Below, piece by piece: positions 20,735-47,401 of a stretch of 48,301 nucleotides of DNA. The position numbers and the translations under genes were made by a program. The DNA is from Candidatus Hydrogenedens sp. (lineage in GTDB: Bacteria; Hydrogenedentota; Hydrogenedentia; Hydrogenedentales; CAITNO01). The notes beneath the pieces were generated by a model that worked only from the letters and a program-made list of their open reading frames with translations, was not told the DNA's origin and did not search any database. The DNA is taken from the NCBI GenBank assembly GCA_012522755.1, contig JAAYJV010000145.1:1-48301 (forward strand), written 5' to 3'. Position 1 is the first letter of the stretch; every line of letters begins with the position of its first letter.

Positions 20735-20769
20735 AAAAAGCCGACCTCTTTAACGAAAGGGGTCGGCTT
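20735..20769 (-). terminator. Intrinsic terminator after the small-peptide cluster
   Basis: On the minus strand AAGCCGACC pairs with GGTCGGCTT; with continuing pairs the stem is about 14 bp around a four-base loop, and it runs into TTTTTG. It begins 21 bases after the last small gene, marking the end of that transcript. Confidence 0.82.
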
Positions 20770-20790
20770 GAAAGGATCTGTCAGGTTATT

Positions 20791-20910
20791 TCATCCGTAA
20801 TATTCGTTTTTCTTTTGAAAACGAAAATCATAAAAAGCGCGGTAAACGGTATACACAAAATCCTGAAATGCCGACGCTTTGCGGACCGTGAGTTTCTGAA
20901 TATGCTTCAT
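20791..20910 (-). CDS. Small MKHI-type peptide A (39 aa)
   Basis: A 39-residue gene preceded by GAGGAG nine bases before the ATG. It begins MKHIQKLTVRKASAF and continues with a basic, tyrosine- and phenylalanine-rich helix containing 'RAFYDFR'. It is a clear paralogue of peptide B: both share MKHI, TVR, A.AF and RA.YDFR at the same spacing, about 17 identities in the first 30 columns. It is the last gene before a strong terminator and follows B by 25 bases. There is no signal peptide; an amphipathic cationic helix that binds membrane or nucleic acid is possible. No known family recognised. Confidence 0.72.
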   Translation of the reverse strand: MKHIQKLTVRKASAFQDFVYTVYRAFYDFRFQKKNEYYG

Positions 20911-20935
20911 AAGTGTTTTCTCCTCGCTTCGTGGT

Positions 20936-21043
20936 TTATAAATATTTTGTATGGCGAAAATCGTACCAGGCGCGCCACAGTGAATTAAACAGGGTCAGAA
21001 AGGCATCGGCACGTCTGACAGTCATCTTACGAATATGTTTCAT
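20936..21043 (-). CDS. Small MKHI-type peptide B (35 aa)
   Basis: A 35-residue gene with GGAG eight bases before the ATG. It begins MKHIRKMTVRRADAF, then has a short hydrophobic-aromatic helix ('LFNSLWRAWYDFRH') and ends near 'TKYL'. Paralogous to peptide A, with substitutions that are mostly conservative (Gln/Arg, Leu/Met, Lys/Arg, Phe/Trp), which indicates selection on the protein. It lies between peptides C and A in one transcriptional direction. Function unknown. Confidence 0.72.
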   Translation of the reverse strand: MKHIRKMTVRRADAFLTLFNSLWRAWYDFRHTKYL

Positions 21044-21126
21044 TGTCATAACTCCATGGGAATGGATTTACAGTACCCGCTATTCATACCATATTTCGAT
21101 GTGAAAAACCAAATGACCGCCCTTTA

Positions 21127-21300
21127 TCAATCTGTATCCGCAGGCGGTGTTGTGGTGCCACTGCCACTCGGGTTCTGCGGATCTTTGTTCTGAAAGAGAG
21201 GCAAAAACACTTTCAGAAGGTCTATGATCAGAGTGATCACCACATCAGGTGCCATGGCCGCATGTTCCGGTTTACGGCTCACTGTATGCAAATGTCTCAT
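21127..21300 (-). CDS. Small MKHI-type peptide C (57 aa)
   Basis: A 57-residue gene with GGGAG six bases before the ATG. It begins MRHLHTVSRKPEHAA, the conservative variant of the MKHI start. A hydrophobic segment ('VVITLIIDLLKVFLPLF', about residues 20-36) follows, then a polar tail rich in Pro, Gly, Ser and Thr and ending in acidic residues. The layout is that of a single-span or membrane-surface peptide with a basic N-terminus. It is 35 bases downstream of peptide D. No homologue recognised. Confidence 0.65.
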   Translation of the reverse strand: MRHLHTVSRKPEHAAMAPDVVITLIIDLLKVFLPLFQNKDPQNPSGSGTTTPPADTD

Positions 21301-21335
21301 GGGATTCTCCCTGTTTCTTTTCCCTGTGATCAGGG

Positions 21336-21536
21336 TTACTCTTCATACGAAGGGGTGTCATCCACAGGAGCTCCCGCCTTCAATCCGATTAAAGGCTGTA
21401 CCAGAGGTACGAACACCTGAGAAAAGAAGGAGAGTACAAAGCAGAACCTGGCCTGCAGATCACTGGTGATATTGGTACAAAGTCCGTCGCTTTGTGCCCG
21501 CTGGGGAAGGCGTCCCATAATCCTGATATGTTTCAT
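21336..21536 (-). CDS. Small MKHI-type peptide D (66 aa)
   Basis: A 66-residue gene with AGGAG seven bases before the ATG. It begins MKHIRIMGRLPQRAQ, then a hydrophobic stretch ('FCFVLSFFSQVFVPLVQPLIGL', split here for length at about residues 31-52) and an acidic tail ending 'DDTPSYEE'. Two cysteines (residues about 20 and 32) are present. It shares start motif and architecture (basic head, hydrophobic middle, polar or acidic tail) with C and E. No known family recognised. Confidence 0.62.
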   Translation of the reverse strand: MKHIRIMGRLPQRAQSDGLCTNITSDLQARFCFVLSFFSQVFVPLVQPLIGLKAGAPVDDTPSYEE

Positions 21537-21605
21537 AATTCATCTCCTGCTGCTGCAGTACTGTTGAAAGTCTACCTTGATATCATCGCATAGCACACGG
21601 GGGCT

Positions 21606-21656
21606 TTACAATTCTTCTCCATAAAAAGACAGAAATCGTCCTGGCCCTGTACCCAT
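21606..21656 (-). CDS. Possible 16-residue micropeptide
   Basis: An ATG with a near-perfect GGAGG six bases upstream opens a 16-codon frame, MGTGPGRFLSFYGEEL, between peptides E and D. It lacks the MKHI start. The strong ribosome site is the only support; it could be a translated leader that couples or attenuates peptide D, or chance. Confidence 0.3.
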   Translation of the reverse strand: MGTGPGRFLSFYGEEL

Positions 21657-21717
21657 ACAATTCCTCCAGAAGGTCAATAGTTCCAAAGAGGAGGCAAGTA
21701 CCGGAAGCTTATCACAC

Positions 21718-21879
21718 TTATTCTGACTCGTCAGATGAAGTGTCAGGTTTCAAGATCTCTTTGCCCTCAAACATGCCCGCAAGAATACCAAGTATCTGAC
21801 CGGCAAGCATGATGTAGCTTCCCAGAGACAGCGAATTGGCCTTTTGAACCGGGCTGCTCAGTCTGATGATATGTTTCAT
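21718..21879 (-). CDS. Small MKHI-type peptide E (53 aa)
   Basis: A 53-residue gene with GAAAGG six bases before the ATG, first of the cluster in transcription order. It begins MKHIIRLSSPVQKAN, has a hydrophobic segment of about 20 residues ('LGSYIMLAGQILGILAGMF') and a polar acidic tail ('KPDTSSDESE'). The prepilin gene ends 129 bases upstream, so read-through from it is possible. It shows the same three-part layout as C and D. Function unknown. Confidence 0.65.
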   Translation of the reverse strand: MKHIIRLSSPVQKANSLSLGSYIMLAGQILGILAGMFEGKEILKPDTSSDESE

Positions 21880-22008: not shown

Positions 22009-22962
22009 TTATAAAATAAGATCCTGCACGGATTGCAAGGCCATCACACAACGACCCACACCACTGTTGACAGGTGCCGGGCCCATCTCTTCATAACGCT
22101 GGAAGGCCACATGACCGTCCATGTAAAGGATATTGGATCCGCCGGGGACATGGTTGAACAGATTGGGATCTATGCCGATCATATCACCCATGATCCAGAC
22201 GGTACTCTGCGCCATGGCACTGGCGGCCGGGTTGTTGATATCTGTAATGAGAAAACGCTCGATCCCTTCACGGAGGCGATAGATGACATTGCCCACTCCA
22301 TTGCCCACTCCATCCCCGACAGTCACATCCTGATCAGCCAGAGCATCATTCTGACTCAAGAGGAAGGGCAAAAAGGCCGCCAGCACACCATCAACCACCT
22401 GCTGAGGGGCCGGACCCGTCAGATTGAGTCCGGGAATGGGCACATTGGCCAGGTCAATACTGGGATCAGAGGAACCCGCTTTATCAATCACCCAGCCAAG
22501 ATAGAGGTAACTGGCGTCACCAAGATGGGCTCCCCGTTTGTTCTCCTGACAGGCAATGCCGATGTCTGTTGTACCGGTGATGGGGTTGATGACGGAATCA
22601 ACCGTCTCCATGGCATCGGAGGGACAAATCAGAATCTTGGCGTCGGTCAGATATTCAGGATAAAGAGGCGGGAGATAGACTCCGGCGGCTACAACACCGT
22701 TACCTCCGGAAAAAGGCATGCCTTCCTGTTCGCAATAACGTGTGGGCACGGTAGCCAGGCAGACTTTGGGGAATTTTTCGCCCGGCGATTCGCTGGAATA
22801 CATTTTATAGACAAGCCCCCATTGCTTGAGATTGTTTTGACAACTGGAACGGCGCGCAGCCTCACGGGCGCGGGCCAGAGCTGGCAGTAAAATAGCCGCG
22901 AGAATGCCGATGATGGCTATGACCACCAGCAATTCAATGAGGGTAAAACCTTTTCTATTCAT
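22009..22962 (-). CDS. DUF1559-type prepilin (pseudopilin) protein
   Basis: A 317-residue protein with a type IV/type II prepilin leader: short basic 'MNRKG' then Phe and '[23 protein letters not shown]', with Glu at position +5 after the Gly/Phe cleavage site. '[17 protein letters not shown]' follows, as in all four copies in the window. The C-terminal domain includes '[19 protein letters not shown]', an H-X-DG type signature of planctomycete/lentisphaerid prepilins. It is processed by a prepilin peptidase and assembled at or beyond the inner membrane; the surface role is unknown. The middle third differs completely from the other copies. A large hairpin lies 41-78 bases upstream. Confidence 0.93.
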
Positions 22963-24626: not shown

Positions 24627-26651
24627 TCAGAAAACTCCACGGGGAAAGCAGCGTTCTGTCAGCCCCGTCTGCTCTTCTCCAGCTGTGAAACGATAGATAG
24701 CCGAAGAACTGATACAAGCAATACCACGTGCTGAGCCGGGAGGAAGGACACTGTAACTGAAGTATCCGGGTGCCGATGGCGTGACTGTCCAGCCAAATTC
24801 CAGAATACCTTCCTGACCCGTTACAGGGACGATATCCGGCGGCGTTCCCGCATTTTCTTCGATGCCGAGAAAACGCCAGCCCTCAGGCAAAAATTCCGTA
24901 CAGGCCAGAGCCAGAGGGAGCTCCACTCCGATCTGTTCCCAACTCACTGTAATGACGAATGCTGTTCCAGGGCTGTATCCCGAAACAGGGTCTTTATGTT
25001 CCAGAGAAATAAGGGTCTGGTACTGGCGGAACTGACTTTCAACCCGGTTGGAAAAAAGATCTGTTCCGCCAACACTGAAAGAGGCTCTTCCACTGAGGGT
25101 AGCCACTTCATCAGAAATCCCCGGAATAACTTCATAGGAAAACTCAAGAGGAAGTGCGGGAAGGGATGACCAGGTGAAAAGCAATTGACCGCTGTTACTG
25201 TCCCAGCTGGCACTGATGAGACCGGAAGGATCCTGGAGAGTTGAAAAAGACCAGCCTTCAGGAAGCTGCTCTGTCAGACTCAAGGACTCCGGGGTACCCT
25301 TGCCGAACGAAGCGAGAGACAGGTGGATGGTAAGTGGTACCGATGCTTCATAAGATTGATCATCCGTACTCCGGCGTTTGAGGATGAGTACCAGTTTTTC
25401 ATCAGCTTCACTTTCGCCTTCCACAGCTTCACCTTCTGCTGGCTCGCCTTCCACAGCTTCACCTTCTACAGGCTCACCTTCTGCTGGTTCACCTTCTGCA
25501 GCTTCGATCTCACCTTCTGCAGCTTCGATCTCACCTTCTGCAGCTTCGATTTCACCTTCTGTGGGCTCACCTTCTACAGCTTCACCTTCCATAGGCTCAC
25601 CTTCCACAGGCTCACCTTCCATAGACTCACCTTCTACGGCTTCACCCTCAATTTCACCTTCTACAGGGAGAGCTTCACAATAGAGGATACTGTCTTCAGG
25701 TTGGTTCAAGTCCAGGCGGCCTGTATTACGCATTTGAAGTCGGCCCTGAAGAAGGCCATCCACGCAGGGATCAGCAGCTTCAATGAGATATGTCAGATCG
25801 AAAGGAAGTTCAGGGCAATGGCTCCAGAAAAAGCTGACATTATTTTCGTCGGTGCTTTGTTCCACTTCTTCCGGCTCAATGGATTCTTCCGTCAAGCCGA
25901 CAAAGTGCCAGCCTTCCGGGAGTTGCTCATGAAACATGATGGGCGTGGGCACCTGCCGGATCATGCCGTCAAAATGTACGGTTACGGCGATCAGCCCCAG
26001 TTCATCGAGACCGGAAGAGGGACTCAAGCTGCGGCTTGCATTCACATATTGTTGGAAAGCTTCCACCTGTACGGCATTATCAATACTGTGGCTGTATGTC
26101 GCTGATTCTGTGTGGAGCGTCAGGCGCACGTCATAGCAGCCTTCTTGCGTATAACGATGTGTGGGATTGGCCGCCGATGAGGTGGCTCCATCGCCAAACT
26201 CCCAGAGGCGACCGGTAACGGATGCGCCGACAACCATAGACTGATCCGTAAAACTGACCAGAAGTGGTGCAGTACCTTCCCGGGGGCTGAGATCAAAATC
26301 CACTGAAACGATTTCGCCTTCAGCCGGATCACGGAGGATCAGGATCTTTTTTGCAACATCCTTATAAAAAAAGCTCTTCAAAGTGAGTGTAATGGTGTAG
26401 CGTCCAGCCTCTTCGTAATAATGGCTCGGCGATTCCTCGTAACACAGGGGGCTTCCATCGCCAAAATCCCATTCGTAGCCGGGTAAGGAAAAGAAACCCG
26501 GCGTCGATCGGTTGAACATGGTAATACGCAAGGGCGCATCACCCCCCGCCGGTGAGACACTGAAATGTGCTTCCGGTTTTATGAGATTGCAGCCGGAATA
26601 CAAAAAGAGTACGGCTGATAAAAGCGCCAGGATAAGGGTATATTTTCCCAT
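24627..26651 (-). CDS. PKD-domain lipoprotein with acidic EGE repeat
   Basis: A 674-residue lipoprotein with lipobox 'LYSGC' (Cys21). Two PKD domains follow ('YEWDFGDGSPLC' near residue 62 and 'RLWEFGDGATSS' near 155). Two or three DUF11-like beta domains, each with a 'LPEGW' motif, surround a low-complexity region at about residues 330-420 made of EGE(P/A)(V/M/A) repeats, including three copies of 'EGEIEAA'. Such EGE repeats are known from surface proteins of Hydrogenedentes and Lentisphaerae. It probably projects from the outer membrane. AAAGGA precedes the ATG. TolB begins 90 bases after its stop, so co-expression is likely. Confidence 0.88.
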   Translation of the reverse strand: MGKYTLILALLSAVLFLYSGCNLIKPEAHFSVSPAGGDAPLRITMFNRSTPGFFSLPGYEWDFGDGSPLCYEESPSHYYEEAGRYTITLTLKSFFYKDVAKKILILRDPAEGEIVSVDFDLSPREGTAPLLVSFTDQSMVVGASVTGRLWEFGDGATSSAANPTHRYTQEGCYDVRLTLHTESATYSHSIDNAVQVEAFQQYVNASRSLSPSSGLDELGLIAVTVHFDGMIRQVPTPIMFHEQLPEGWHFVGLTEESIEPEEVEQSTDENNVSFFWSHCPELPFDLTYLIEAADPCVDGLLQGRLQMRNTGRLDLNQPEDSILYCEALPVEGEIEGEAVEGESMEGEPVEGEPMEGEAVEGEPTEGEIEAAEGEIEAAEGEIEAAEGEPAEGEPVEGEAVEGEPAEGEAVEGESEADEKLVLILKRRSTDDQSYEASVPLTIHLSLASFGKGTPESLSLTEQLPEGWSFSTLQDPSGLISASWDSNSGQLLFTWSSLPALPLEFSYEVIPGISDEVATLSGRASFSVGGTDLFSNRVESQFRQYQTLISLEHKDPVSGYSPGTAFVITVSWEQIGVELPLALACTEFLPEGWRFLGIEENAGTPPDIVPVTGQEGILEFGWTVTPSAPGYFSYSVLPPGSARGIACISSSAIYRFTAGEEQTGLTERCFPRGVF

Positions 26652-30063: not shown

Positions 30064-33000
30064 ATGATGCCTTCAAAGCATCATGTGACCTCATCCACTG
30101 AGGCTGAAACTGTTCCTCAGGAAAGTGTGTCAACCACCAGTTCCGACCAGATCAAAAAAATGTCTCCCCGCCTTCGACGCTGTCTGCTCATCCTTTGTCT
30201 GATCATAGCCGCAGCGATAAGAGGCTTTCTCTTTGTCGAATACCGTACAAGTCCGGACTATGAGCATCCTCTTCATGATGCTGAATTTCGGGATTATTGG
30301 GCCCGCGCCATTGTCACAGGCGATTGGACGCCCCCGCCAGGACGAAACGACCCTTTCGCGGACTGGCTTCCTCATCCCCATGCTCCGGGATATTCCTGGT
30401 TTCTTTCCGGTGTTTACCGCATCTTCGGATTGGGATACGACGCCCCCCGCTTGGTGCAGATGTTTCTGGGGTTGCTCAGCATTCTGCTTCTCTATGATAT
30501 TGCCCGACGTCTCCATAACGAATCAGCCGCACTCATTGCCGCGGCCATGATGGCCCTTTATTTCATATTCCCTTTGTATGAGATGGATCTGGGCCCCATC
30601 AGTGCCATCATCTTTCTGCTCTTGTATCTCATCCGGAGCGGAGCACGGTCATTGAAACGACCTCGCTTCCTGCGAGACATGACAAGCGGGTTCCTTGCAG
30701 GTGCAGTCTCTATAATGCGACGGGAATTCATGCCCTTCGGCATTCTCTTTCTGGGCATGCATCTTTATGGGTATTGGAAGAAAGGAAAATGGAAAGAAGC
30801 CGCCGTTGCTGCGACTGTCTGGAGTATCTGTTTTATCCTTCCGTCTGTTCCCGGTTCCATATACAATTATAAAAATACCGGAGAGCTTCCTTTGCTGGGA
30901 AGTGAGGGTACCTGTCTTTTCTACTGCTCCAACAATCAATGGGCCACAGGCTACAATCCGGACTCGCCGGATCTGAGAGCTTTTATTCATGATGATGACT
31001 GGTCTCTCTTTGCCTTTCCAGCCATGCTTGAAGGCTACGCAAAAGCCCACAACATCAAAAAACATTCCTATCATGATCTCATCGATCATCTGAAAACAAT
31101 GAATCAGAATTTCCTGACCCACGAGACCGGTCGTATTCTCAAACTCATGCTGAAAAAACAGGCGCTCTTCTGGGGACCTGTTGAAATAGATGAAAATAAA
31201 GTCGTCGCCTGCGAAAAAGAGCATTATGCCGTTATCCGTTATTTACCCGGCTTCACTCCTGTCCTGGCGGTTTCTGTAATAGGCGCAGCACTCATTTTTA
31301 TTCGAGGTATCCGTCGACAAAAAGGATTCAGTAGAGGAAAATGGATACTCTGGGGAATCCTCCTTCTATCCATTCTTGCATACAGCGGTATTTTCTCTTT
31401 GTTTTATGTAACAGCTCGCTATCGTATTCCCGTCATTCCTATCCTGATCCTTTTCGCTTCTGCAGCCGTTGCCGACTGGATCGATTGTCTGAGGTGCGGC
31501 CATTTTAAGAAAGCACTGGTGGGACTGGGCACTTTTCTCCTTCTCATGGTTCTGCTGAGCAGACCCCTGGTTGCTTTCACACCCGATACGGAACGATGGC
31601 TCGATGAACGACGCAGAGCCTGGGTAAAAATAAATAAGGCCGATGAAGGAATCGCTGATCTGGAACGCTGGAATTCCCGGCATCCACAGAGTGCCGGCGG
31701 TCACTATCATCTGGCTCTGCTGCTCATCGAAAAAGGACAACCTGAAGAAGCGCTCAAAGACCTGCAAACTGCAACAGCCTTAGACCCCGAATATCATGTG
31801 GCCTATTACAATCAGGGGATGGTCCTGTTGACTTTGAACAGGCCTGATGAGGCTGTTGAATCTTTTAAAATCCGTCTGGAAAGAGCTGAGAAAGATGAAA
31901 GGGCCTGGTTTGGTTTGTCACAAGCCTGGCAGGCCCTTGGTAATATCGAAGCACAACAAAATGCCTTGGATCAGGCTTTGGCGCTGAAAGCGGGATATCC
32001 CGAGGCTTTGGTGGATCGCAGCATACTTTTCCTGAAAGAAGGGAAGCGTATCCAGGCCACTGAGCTGCTGGAACAGGCTCTGAAAGCATCACCCGGTTAT
32101 GCCATGGCTGAATTCAATCTGGGGCTGCTCTATGCCGAAGAAGGCCGCTACAGTACAGCCCTGGACTTTTTTGGGGCTGCTCTGACTCATGGGCCGGGAC
32201 GGGCTGATTTCCATTACAACACCGGTCTTGTGCTGATTCAGTTGCAGCAATACGAAGAGGCTGTCAGGCATTTTCAGGAAGCGCTGGTCCTGCAGCCTGA
32301 CTATCCCGAAATCTATTCCAATCTGGGGCTGAGTCTGGCACGGCTTCAGCAACCCGAAGAAGCGAAGGAGGCTTTCGACCGGGCCTTTGAACTGCTGCCC
32401 CACAGCGGAGATACATTGTATAACCATGGCTGTGCGTTGAATTCACTGGGAGATCATGAAGGCGCCCGCAAGCATTTCGAAGCGGTGCTGGAAGAAGAGC
32501 CCTCCCATGGGAAGGCGCTTTTTGAGCTGGCTCTGCTGGATATGGCGGACAATAATCTGGAAAGCGCTCTTCAGCATCTGAACCGTGCGCAGCCCATTCT
32601 CTCCGGTGATCCGGAGATCAGCTACAACCTGGCGTTGATCCGTCAACGGCAGCACAATATCAATGAAGCACAGCGTTATTTCAGTGATACCTTGCAGCTG
32701 AACCCCGATCATTTTGGTGCCAACAGAGGATTGGGCACGCTCCTGCGCGGCGCCGATGATTCTTTCAGTGCCCTCCCTTTTCTGGAGGTGGCTCTCCGGG
32801 CGGAAGAAGGACAGGAGGACGGAGATCTTTATTATGAATATGGGCTGGCCTTGAAAGCATTGGAACGGTATGACGAGGCGGAAGAAGCACTTGTCAGAGC
32901 GGCGGAACTTGTCCCGGAGTCAGCCGATATCCAGAGTCATGGGGCTTTGAATTATATTGCACAGGGACGTTATGACGAGGCGGCATCTCACTTTGAAAAG

Positions 33001-34404
33001 GCCATGAAGCTGGATCCGGAAAATCTTCTGCTCCCATACAGGCTGGGTCTGGCGCAGCTCGAGGGCGGCAACGCCGCAGCCGCCGTGGAAAGCCTGGCCC
33101 CTCTGCTGGATGCCATGCCCTATCATGCCACTCTTCGTTATGATTATGGTCGGGCCCTGGCGGCACTCTCCCGTCATGAGGAGGCCATTGAAGCCTATGG
33201 ATGGGCCTGGCTTCTGGACAACGGCTATCTCAATGCCATCAACGGACTGGGCTTTTCTCTGTCGCTTTCCGGACGCCCCGAAGAAGCGCTGGAATGGCTG
33301 CATCTCGCCCTGCAGATGGACCCGGACAATGAAGACGGACTTTTCAACCGGGGTCATGCCCTCCATATTCTGGGTCGCTTGAAAGAGGCGGAGGACAGTT
33401 TCCGCGCCCTCCTCCGTCGTGATCCTCATCACAGCCGTGGCCTGCTCAATCTGGGCCTGATTCTGGAAAGGCAAGGACACCGGGATGCTGCGCAAGACGC
33501 TTTTGAAGCGGCACTGGTGGAAGAAGAAAGGCTGGCTCTGGCCCATCATCATCTTGCGGGTCTGCTCCGTCAGAAGGGAGAGCGTGATGACGCCATCCAT
33601 CATTATCGCCTCGCCCGGGACTATGATCCGGACAATCAGAATACCCTCATCAATCTGGGTTTTACCCTGGTCGAAATGGGCCGTATCACCGAGGCGGAAA
33701 CACTCTTCACGGAAGCACACAGCCTGGCTCCGGAAGATGCGGAAGCACTGATCGGTCTGGGCGACGTGCGCATGGCACGCAATGCCCTCGCTGAAGCGGA
33801 AGAAGCCTATGTGGAGGCCTTGAGTCTGGCACCGGATAATCCCGTGGCCCTCAAGCAATATGGCTTTCTCTTTCTCCAGCAGGGCAAGAGCCTGGAAGCT
33901 CTGGAAAACTTTGAAAAAGCGCTCTTCGCTCTTCCCGATGATGCAGGACTCTATTGCGGGCTGGGTGATGTCGCCTTTGCCCGGGGCGACCTTGAGCATG
34001 CCGAAGCCCATTATCAGAAAGCCGTGGAACTGTATCCGGACTTTGCTCTGGCCTGGAACAACTACGGCGACCTTCTCGCCCGGCGAGGCCAGACAAACGA
34101 TGCTATCCGGGCCTATGAGAAAGCGCGGGCTCTGGAGCCGGACAACATCAGCGTACTCCTTAATCTGGGGAGACTCCATGCCCGCGAAAAAGAGGTGGAG
34201 CAGGCTCTGGAGGTTCTGGAAACAGCCTTGCGTCTGGAACCGGAAAACCTCCGGGTACGCGCACTCGTGGGAGACATGAAGCTGCTGGGCGGCGATGTGG
34301 AGGCCGCTGTTCGTGAATACAACCGTATTCTTCTGGAGCGGCCGGACTGGCTGGATATCCGTGACAAAATGGAATCGGCCCGGACACAGAGTGCATCTTC
34401 CTGA
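30064..34404 (+). CDS. Giant membrane glycosyltransferase/TPR protein
   Basis: A 1446-residue protein. Residues about 35-500 are a polytopic membrane region resembling GT39/ArnT/PMT-type glycosyltransferases: 'HDAEFRDYWARAIVTGDW' has the acidic motif of the first periplasmic loop and 'PHAPGYSWFLSGVYRIFG' follows. From about residue 520 to the end come roughly 25 tetratricopeptide repeats, recognisable as 'YYNQGMVLLTLNRPDEAVE', 'YSNLGLSLARLQQPEEAKE' and similar. The enzyme part may transfer a lipid-linked sugar to protein and the TPR part may select substrates or assemble a complex. Which side of the membrane the repeats face is unclear. It follows the J-domain gene by four bases. Confidence 0.87.
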   Translation: MMPSKHHVTSSTEAETVPQESVSTTSSDQIKKMSPRLRRCLLILCLIIAAAIRGFLFVEYRTSPDYEHPLHDAEFRDYWARAIVTGDWTPPPGRNDPFADWLPHPHAPGYSWFLSGVYRIFGLGYDAPRLVQMFLGLLSILLLYDIARRLHNESAALIAAAMMALYFIFPLYEMDLGPISAIIFLLLYLIRSGARSLKRPRFLRDMTSGFLAGAVSIMRREFMPFGILFLGMHLYGYWKKGKWKEAAVAATVWSICFILPSVPGSIYNYKNTGELPLLGSEGTCLFYCSNNQWATGYNPDSPDLRAFIHDDDWSLFAFPAMLEGYAKAHNIKKHSYHDLIDHLKTMNQNFLTHETGRILKLMLKKQALFWGPVEIDENKVVACEKEHYAVIRYLPGFTPVLAVSVIGAALIFIRGIRRQKGFSRGKWILWGILLLSILAYSGIFSLFYVTARYRIPVIPILILFASAAVADWIDCLRCGHFKKALVGLGTFLLLMVLLSRPLVAFTPDTERWLDERRRAWVKINKADEGIADLERWNSRHPQSAGGHYHLALLLIEKGQPEEALKDLQTATALDPEYHVAYYNQGMVLLTLNRPDEAVESFKIRLERAEKDERAWFGLSQAWQALGNIEAQQNALDQALALKAGYPEALVDRSILFLKEGKRIQATELLEQALKASPGYAMAEFNLGLLYAEEGRYSTALDFFGAALTHGPGRADFHYNTGLVLIQLQQYEEAVRHFQEALVLQPDYPEIYSNLGLSLARLQQPEEAKEAFDRAFELLPHSGDTLYNHGCALNSLGDHEGARKHFEAVLEEEPSHGKALFELALLDMADNNLESALQHLNRAQPILSGDPEISYNLALIRQRQHNINEAQRYFSDTLQLNPDHFGANRGLGTLLRGADDSFSALPFLEVALRAEEGQEDGDLYYEYGLALKALERYDEAEEALVRAAELVPESADIQSHGALNYIAQGRYDEAASHFEKAMKLDPENLLLPYRLGLAQLEGGNAAAAVESLAPLLDAMPYHATLRYDYGRALAALSRHEEAIEAYGWAWLLDNGYLNAINGLGFSLSLSGRPEEALEWLHLALQMDPDNEDGLFNRGHALHILGRLKEAEDSFRALLRRDPHHSRGLLNLGLILERQGHRDAAQDAFEAALVEEERLALAHHHLAGLLRQKGERDDAIHHYRLARDYDPDNQNTLINLGFTLVEMGRITEAETLFTEAHSLAPEDAEALIGLGDVRMARNALAEAEEAYVEALSLAPDNPVALKQYGFLFLQQGKSLEALENFEKALFALPDDAGLYCGLGDVAFARGDLEHAEAHYQKAVELYPDFALAWNNYGDLLARRGQTNDAIRAYEKARALEPDNISVLLNLGRLHAREKEVEQALEVLETALRLEPENLRVRALVGDMKLLGGDVEAAVREYNRILLERPDWLDIRDKMESARTQSASS

Positions 34405-43809: not shown

Positions 43810-44805
43810 TTACAGGTCAGAATTCAGCAGAGCAACCAGCACAGCCATGGGCTCATTGACCGGTCCATCTCCATATTGCTCATAACGCATGAAGGCCACA
43901 TGACCATCCATGTAGAGCACATTGGAACCGCCGGGCACGTGGTTGAAATCAGCCGGATTCGTGCTGAGCTGGTCGTACATGATGGACACCGTACTCTGGG
44001 CCTGAGCGCTTGCGGCCGGATTGTTGATGTCCGTAATCAGGAAGCGTTCAATCCCTTCACGGATGCGATAGACCGTATCGCTGGTGCCGCCGCCATTGCC
44101 GAGACCAGCCTCCACCTTCACGTCCTTATCAGCCATGGGTGCCGCTCCGATCGGTGCTGTACAGGGCTTGGCGAGATAGGGCATGATGGCCGGAAGATCA
44201 CCCAGAAGAGCGTCCAGAGCCTTGCCCAACTGTGCGGAAACCAGGGTGGTGCCATCAAGATTGGCAATATTGGGTACCAACCCGACAAGCACTGTATAGA
44301 GGTCCAGACTGTCCAGGGTAATCTGCGGTGAGGTCGAATCAATGAGATCCAGCACCCAACCCAGATAGGCATAGCTGGAGTCTACAGCGCGGGCGCATTT
44401 GCCACCGTGGTTATGGCCATAGCCTATGCAGAATTCATCTCCGCCGTCTTTGGCCTGGTCAATCTTACCGCCCAGATCAGCCGTGGAAGGGCAGAAAATA
44501 ATCATGGGATCCGTGAGATATTCCGGATAAATCTGGAACAGATTCGGACCCGCATCAATGGCGCCACGGGTATCCCCTTCTTTACGCAGGTAACAGCCTA
44601 CTTGAAGACTGGGAAACTTTTCGCCCGGAGATTCGTTGGCATACATTTTGAAGACCAGACCCCACTGTTTCAGATTGTTCTGGCAGGAAGAACGCCGTGC
44701 CGCTTCACGGGCACGGGCGAGGGCCGGCAGCAGGATGGCCGCCAGAATGCCGATGATGGCAATCACCACCAGCAGTTCGATGAGTGTGAAACCTTTTTTT
44801 CTCAT
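43810..44805 (-). CDS. DUF1559-type prepilin, tandem copy 1
   Basis: A 331-residue prepilin with leader 'MRKKG' and the same hydrophobic N-helix and '[32 protein letters not shown]' region as its neighbours. The middle is specific to this copy. The C-terminus has '[28 protein letters not shown]' features, '[19 protein letters not shown]' and '[10 protein letters not shown]'. AAGGAG lies eight bases before the ATG. It has its own promoter (44860-44888) and terminator, so it is monocistronic. The role in a pilus-like fibre or secretion pseudopilus is inferred from the leader only. Confidence 0.93.
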
Positions 44806-44989: not shown

Positions 44990-45979
44990 TTACAGACCAT
45001 TAAGAATGGCAACCAGATATGCCATGGGGCTGTTGACAGGGCCATCGCCTTTTTCTTCGTAGCGCTGGAAGGCAACGTGACCGTCCATGAAGAGGACGTT
45101 GGAGCCGCCGGGCACGTGGTTGAATTTGGCCGGATCCACGGAAATCTGGTCAAACATAACGAAGACCGTGCTCTGGGCCTGGGCACTGGCTGCGGGGTTG
45201 TTGATGTCCGTGATCAGGAAGCGCTCAATACCTTCGCGGATACGATACACTTTGTCACTGTCCGTACCAAAACCCCCGTTACCGGTACCGGCAGCTACCG
45301 TAATGTCCTTATCAGCAGCGGGAACCATGCCTTCGTTACCGGACATCACGAAGGGAAGGGTGGTGCTGTCGCCCAGCATACCGTCGAGGGTCCAGCCGAA
45401 TTGTGCGGACACTTCAGCGTTGGGATCGATGGAGGAGGCGTCGATCAATCCAGCCGTGACGAGGGCGCCGATGTTGGTCAGCTGACCCAGGGTCACTTTG
45501 GGGCTGTCATAATCGACCTGATCAAGCACCCAGCCGATGTAGTTGTAGCTCTCGTCAATCACACGGGCGCATTTACCGCCATGATTGTGCGCGTAACCGA
45601 CGCAGAACTCATCCGTACCATCCTTGGCTTTGTCAATGATTCCGCCCAGATCCGCCGTGGAGGGACAGAAGATGATCATGGGATCACTGATGTACTCAGG
45701 ATAAATCTGGAAGAGATTCGGACCGGCATCGACGGCAAGACGAATGGTTCCATTTCTGTCTTTGTAGTTACCCGCCTGCAGCGAGGGGAATTTTTCTCCC
45801 GGGGATTCGTTGGCATACATCTTGAACACAAGCCCCCACTGCTTCAGATTGTTCTGGCAGGAGGAGCGACGCGCCGCTTCACGGGCACGGGCGAGAGCAG
45901 GCAGCAGAATAGCCGCCAGGATGCCGATGATCGCAATTACCACCAGCAGTTCGATGAGAGTAAATCCTTTTCGTTTCAT
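44990..45979 (-). CDS. DUF1559-type prepilin, tandem copy 2
   Basis: A 329-residue prepilin, leader 'MKRKG'. Its first 70 and last 90 residues are nearly the same as in copies 1 and 3, including '[22 protein letters not shown]', 'HNHGGKCAR' and '[19 protein letters not shown]'. The central 100 residues differ ('[23 protein letters not shown]'). AAGGAG lies nine bases before the ATG. It has its own promoter and terminator. Together the three copies look like variants of one structural subunit. Confidence 0.93.
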
Positions 45980-46349: not shown

Positions 46350-47342
<993 letters not shown>

Positions 47343-47401
47343 AATACATGACTCCTTGGATTTGGTTAAAGGGTACAACAAAAAATAGCAACAACTCCCA
47401 G

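Follow-up and report, generated by a model that had tools for sequence, protein, structure and literature searches.

A candidate RiPP-like system of small peptides with one common head and several bodies in Hydrogenedentota

What is encoded by five very small genes that follow one another on one strand, begin almost alike and are closed by a single terminator? The string lies in the window, a stretch of 48,301 nucleotides from Candidatus Hydrogenedens sp. that makes up a whole contig (C117) of a 4.0-Mb assembly, 95% complete. An earlier note, made from the sequence alone, described five minus-strand frames with MKHI or MRHL starts as a multi-component small-peptide system. All five frames were found again at the lengths and with the starts given in Table 1, each behind a plausible Shine-Dalgarno site. 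The intrinsic terminator that closes the unit is also present (-22.5 kcal/mol, z = -5.25), with 13 pairs in the stem and not the 14 originally counted. A promoter scan gave nothing above shuffled sequences, and Rfam matches to SNORA77 and RFPL3-AS1 fell below the gathering score and were taken as chance. The window peptides contain either no cysteine or two; those of gene 2 are conserved in the context LCTN...QARFCF. In gene 4 the common head is followed by the amphipathic aromatic helix RADAF...WRAWYDFR. Genes 4 and 5 are paralogues with 54% identity.

Table 1. Location and description of the peptide genes, the partner operon and other features mentioned in the text.
Feature	Location	Strand	Description
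Peptide gene 1	window 21718-21879	-	53 aa, type A; head MKHI, hydrophobic helix, K-E, acidic tail
Peptide gene 2	window 21336-21536	-	66 aa, type B; head MKHI, two conserved Cys, hydrophobic helix
Peptide gene 3	window 21127-21300	-	57 aa, type C; head MRHL, hydrophobic helix, QNKxPQNP, polar tail
Peptide gene 4	window 20936-21043	-	35 aa, type D, first copy; head MKHI, amphipathic aromatic helix
Peptide gene 5	window 20791-20910	-	39 aa, type D, second copy; head MKHI
Terminator	window 20738-20769	-	intrinsic stem-loop, 9 + 4 pairs around one mismatch, then T run
c2, c3			GNAT-fold proteins
c4			CPBP/Rce1-like intramembrane protease
c0			DrrA-like ABC ATPase
c5			no family match; position expected for permease partner of c0
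c1			about 640 aa; CteB-like RRE, radical-SAM barrel and SPASM, fused to a third GNAT domain
Operon of the window genome	C173, about 44451-50085		complete, c2-c3-c4-c0-c5-c1
c1 of the window genome	G000 C173; L109 10452-12302		long branch in c1 tree
Flank of the window-genome operon	L109 15523-18851		jag- and mnmE-like genes, yidC-like fragment
Prepilin-like genes	window 22009-22962, 43810-44805, 44990-45979, 46350-47381		near-identical N-termini
Repeat protein	window 24627-26651		674 aa, PKD-like repeats
Membrane protein	window 30064-34404		1446 aa, TPR-like repeats

Short frames can arise randomly, and genes 4 and 5 form a duplicate pair, as would be expected if the string consisted of spurious ORFs or of recent DNA duplication. 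Against this stands the comparison with a sister genome of the same genus (G013), in which synonymous sites of the five genes differ at 71%, near saturation, and non-synonymous sites at 13%, giving a pooled pN/pS of 0.19; 14 other gene pairs from related genomes, taken for comparison, gave 0.05-0.31. The pN and pS values were 0.22 and 0.83 for gene 1, 0.14 and 0.72 for gene 2, 0.14 and 0.77 for gene 3, 0.05 and 0.31 for gene 4, and 0.08 and 0.78 for gene 5. The five small genes are under strong purifying selection. Homologues occur in 53 genomes. In 118 kb of cluster DNA from these genomes there are 113 small ATG frames that open with the pattern M[KR]H[ILV]xx[ILVM][STG], and the 1.28 Mb of strand on their flanks contain none. 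We therefore give chance frames or DNA duplication a negligible probability and reject them. Within the 4.0-Mb genome, ATGAARCAYATHMRN has four matches, three of them in the window cluster; the fourth sits inside a longer ORF and was not accepted as a family member. The earlier note had proposed that the head is conserved at the protein level, and had named preserved frames in related genomes and dN/dS as checks. The ratio is far from 1, the homologues exist, and head codons vary among the members of the family, all in agreement with that proposal.

The family collected here comprises 171 small head-bearing frames from 54 loci in 53 genomes, with one to six per locus. Its consensus head of about 14 residues reads M[KR]H[ILV]xx[IVL][ST]xxPxxA. 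The first four positions are occupied by M (100%), K/R (99%), H (89%) and I/L/V (93%), frequencies that are partly built in because the collection required H3, K2 and a hydrophobic position 4. Positions 7, 8, 11 and 14 were free in the collection, and show I/V/L in 91%, S/T in 93%, P in 51% and A in 72% of the peptides, respectively. Apart from the frequent A14, no cleavage site is evident. Many peptide genes begin with GTG or TTG (L065, L067, L074, L076 and others), so annotation pipelines and ATG-only searches undercount the family.

Behind this one head stand at least four different helical bodies, types A to D, and others exist. Members of type A occur in many genomes, type B was found at 22 loci and type C at 17 or more. 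Types A-C carry a hydrophobic helix of transmembrane grade, and type D an amphipathic aromatic helix. In 146 of the 171 peptides the hydrophobic sequence is followed by Lys and then by E, N, D, K or T. Length differences among type D members are located between head and body, so that the two look like separate modules. Two loci, L052 and L063 (genomes G062 and G061), hold a different head-bearing repertoire outside types A-C; an example is MKHIKTVSVQKA..., and KSPWGRY is found at the ends. That a single head precedes four or more unrelated bodies is the basis for reading the peptides as leader plus core; the 171 peptides have the form expected of RiPP precursors, namely short genes whose leader is conserved while the body varies, and we infer that the common head is a leader that is removed. 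Searches of Pfam and NCBIfam with the peptides returned no match, and among open-licence papers no description of the system was found, in keeping with the view of the earlier note that no described family has this layout. Its broader proposal of a multi-component peptide system with a common head is likewise borne out by the family and head counts.

A partner for these peptides becomes apparent from the other genomes. In 46 of the 54 loci (46 of the 53 genomes) the string lies directly upstream of a six-gene operon on the same strand, with c2 beginning within about 500 bp of the last peptide gene, a type D gene. On contigs of sufficient length the genes run c2-c3-c4-c0-c5-c1. Of the three guesses offered in the earlier note, secreted signals with a common head came closest, and this dedicated operon, which lies outside the window, was missed. 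The glgP and prepilin genes that the note had named as the context of the system did not hold up in that role: adjacency to glgP is confined to the genus of the window and a sister genus, the constant partner is the six-gene operon, and we reject a functional link to either gene. In other genomes gltB and gltD (glutamate synthase) often precede the peptide string. The window itself contains four prepilin-like genes with near-identical N-termini and a C-terminal MDGHVAF, which we take to be of the H-X9-DG type; three of them stand in tandem at the contig end. It also encodes a protein in which PKD-like repeats are accompanied by a long EGE-rich low-complexity stretch (EGEPVEGEAVEGEP...), and a membrane protein that continues into a very long series of TPR-like repeats. 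At L045, L056, L058, L073 and L079, strong hairpins with T runs stand just after the type D gene and ahead of the operon. Such terminator-like hairpins, present in several of the genomes in which string and operon are linked, even where the two adjoin, suggest that peptide production exceeds that of the operon.

Two of the operon products look intact as far as their motifs can tell. The c4 protein matches PF02517 above the cut-off (E 5.5e-11) and keeps EExIxR, HxHFF and HxxRN across 26 sequences, as a membrane protease should; c0 has the Walker and signature motifs of an ABC ATPase. From its position, c5 is presumed to be the membrane partner of c0. A Pfam search with c1 gave no match, and its profile aligned over residues 4-435 with CteB (E 4.7e-39), the thioether maturase of SCIFF, while residues 522-636 match acetyltransferases of the RimL/RimJ kind. 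An AlphaFold2 model (pLDDT 83.5, pTM 0.66) has CteB as its best match in the PDB (E 4.6e-18), followed by GNATs. The N-terminus aligns with the CteB RRE, and the model gives it three strands and three helices; this putative RRE carries an invariant motif of the CFCxECD type. In CteB, the RRE binds the leader of the precursor peptide as a beta strand (PMC8326336). Four SPASM cysteines are kept in c1 (395, 398, 404 and 427).

The catalytic motifs are a different matter. The SAM-binding CX3CX2C motif is found in none of 22 c1 sequences, and the acyl-CoA P-loop [QR]xxGx[GA] in none of 19 c2 and none of 20 c3 sequences. It is also absent at its expected place in the GNAT domain of c1; six regular-expression matches in c1 lie before that place, as read from the alignment. 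A modifying enzyme with intact catalytic motifs, which a RiPP system would include, was thus not found, and there is no support for reading c1, c2 and c3 as radical SAM or GNAT enzymes of the usual, active kind. With both motifs missing, the two chemistries expected from these folds may not happen.

Taken together, these observations make it probable, though well short of certain, that the locus encodes a RiPP-like system of leader-peptide maturation and export with degenerate-looking modifying enzymes, in which the head serves as leader. The precursor-like peptides would share one leader of about 14 residues in front of different helical bodies. The RRE of c1 would read the common head, and c1 together with the GNAT-fold proteins c2 and c3 would present or modify the body. 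The CPBP protease c4 may then cut the peptide, and the ABC pair c0/c5 may move it across or into the membrane. The linkage of 46 of 54 loci to the operon and the presence of c1 in all 53 genomes with type D count for this reading; the absence of CX3CX2C from all 22 c1 sequences and of the P-loop from c2 and c3 counts against it.

Two other views of the enzymes can be considered. In a peptide system that would define the phylum, a CteB-type radical SAM/SPASM protein and the GNAT folds may have turned, as a set, into non-catalytic scaffolds that read peptides, so that the leader-tagged peptides are sorted, cut by the membrane protease and exported without classic RiPP chemistry; we regard this as a tentative idea that is rather less than probable. 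Conversely, the three GNAT-fold domains might all be active and acylate the peptides, for example at the Lys after the helix or at the N-terminus, and an ABC-2 exporter would secrete the resulting lipopeptides, products comparable to selidamides. Three such domains in one operon and the Lys that follows the hydrophobic sequence in most of the peptides would suit this proposal, as would the precedent of selidamides and nostolysamides, in which Lys or Orn is acylated by GNATs (PMC9505594, PMC13060382). The missing acyl-CoA P-loop in c1, c2 and c3 speaks against it, and we consider acylation unlikely. Some GNAT-fold enzymes use donors other than acyl-CoA.

Several known systems can be compared with the locus. 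SCIFF/ranthipeptide systems (CteA-CteB; TIGR03974; PDB 5wgg) share the RRE-barrel-SPASM arrangement to which c1 aligns, as well as an ABC exporter and small peptides whose head resembles a leader. Unlike their maturase, an active radical SAM enzyme with CX3CX2C, c1 lacks this motif, has four SPASM cysteines and a C-terminal GNAT domain, and scores 55-69 bits against TIGR03974, for which the cut-off is 425. The precursors differ as well, since a SCIFF peptide has six cysteines in 45 residues, a feature not seen in the window peptides with their none to two, and several precursor types stand together at one locus. Selidamides and other GNAT-acylated RiPPs (phaeornamide, nostolysamides) resemble our system in combining a GNAT-fold protein with small precursors and a transporter (PMC9505594, PMC13060382). 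They differ in that no lanthionine synthetase and no match to NHLP or Nif11 leaders was found here, and in that c1, c2 and c3 lack the acyl-CoA P-loop of the selidamide GNAT. Judged by these sequence features, the layout is RiPP-like, yet the system is neither a SCIFF nor a selidamide system.

Members of the pseudo-radical-SAM/SPASM family TIGR04347 likewise combine SPASM with a radical-SAM domain that has degenerated, but the match is weak and lies far under the threshold (E 0.001; 18 bits where 525 are required). To our knowledge, neither a GNAT fusion nor MKHI peptides are part of that family. For c4, the nearest NCBIfam matches are CPBP proteins of the myxosortase type (MrtJ, MrtS, MrtC; E about 2e-5), with which it shares the CPBP core, although it falls below every curated cut-off. 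The peptides described here carry an N-terminal head and presumably no C-terminal sorting signal of the myxosortase type.

Our 68 genomes of the order are identical to the phylum-level set for Hydrogenedentota. Most are draft metagenome assemblies. A profile of genes 4 and 5 matched 53 of them, and a broader type D profile likewise 53 of the 68. The type D body was found in none of 127 genomes outside the phylum by profile search, a sample that leaves scope for distant relatives. The c1 gene, for which genome contigs were scanned with short patterns, is present in 62 of the 68 genomes. It occurs in every type D genome, and the six genomes without it also lack type D; five of these six belong to one family, so the co-occurrence rests on few independent losses. 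Assembly gaps or divergence may account for the nine c1-positive genomes without type D. The c1 tree follows families, which is consistent with vertical inheritance of the system and its near-universal retention in the phylum.

This distribution bears on two further explanations. If the peptides instead built up a membrane or envelope assembly as its small structural subunits, the head would be a targeting signal that is not removed as a leader, and the operon would be a dedicated insertion and assembly machine. The helices of all four types, the vertical retention and the fact that each locus keeps several types together would be in line with a structural part. With its RRE/SPASM architecture, however, c1 points to peptide processing, as does the CPBP protease, and the sets of body types differ between families, which would be unusual for fixed subunits; structural subunits thus seem to us an improbable answer. 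Bacteriocin loci with small peptides, an ABC transporter and a CPBP protein are known, and the small amphipathic or hydrophobic peptides beside such proteins could be taken as several bacteriocin peptides encoded together with their exporter and a CPBP immunity protein. Vertical inheritance, phylum-wide retention and bodies under strong purifying selection are unlike the product of an arms race. Moreover, the peptides have no double-glycine leader and the operon has no C39 peptidase domain, as c0 matches only ATPase families and c5 none. We hold the bacteriocin explanation to be very unlikely.

The RiPP-like maturation and export reading must also accommodate the genome of the window itself, in which the complete operon lies on a different contig (C173) and no peptide gene stands beside it in the stretch examined. 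Peptide loci away from the operon are found in genera g1, g3 and g7 of the window's family, plus one exception, a second locus in G050 at a contig end. In the c1 tree g1, g3 and g7 form one clade (support 100/99) inside the family group (94/98), consistent with a single separation of peptides and operon. Peptides and operon products would then act in trans. The c1 of the window genome has a long branch (1.44); it keeps CFCFEC and the SPASM cysteines. Relaxed or changed selection on this c1 after the separation is possible. The operon lies just downstream of jag- and mnmE-like genes, which are preceded by a yidC-like fragment.

The system described here is thus a near-universal, vertically inherited peptide system of one phylum, known here from metagenome assemblies only and named by none of the family libraries searched. 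It offers a test case for the evolution of RiPP enzymes into pseudo-enzymes, and its common head provides a motif for finding precursors. Since both peptides and operon were kept after their chromosomal separation, their function is likely to be important to Hydrogenedentota.
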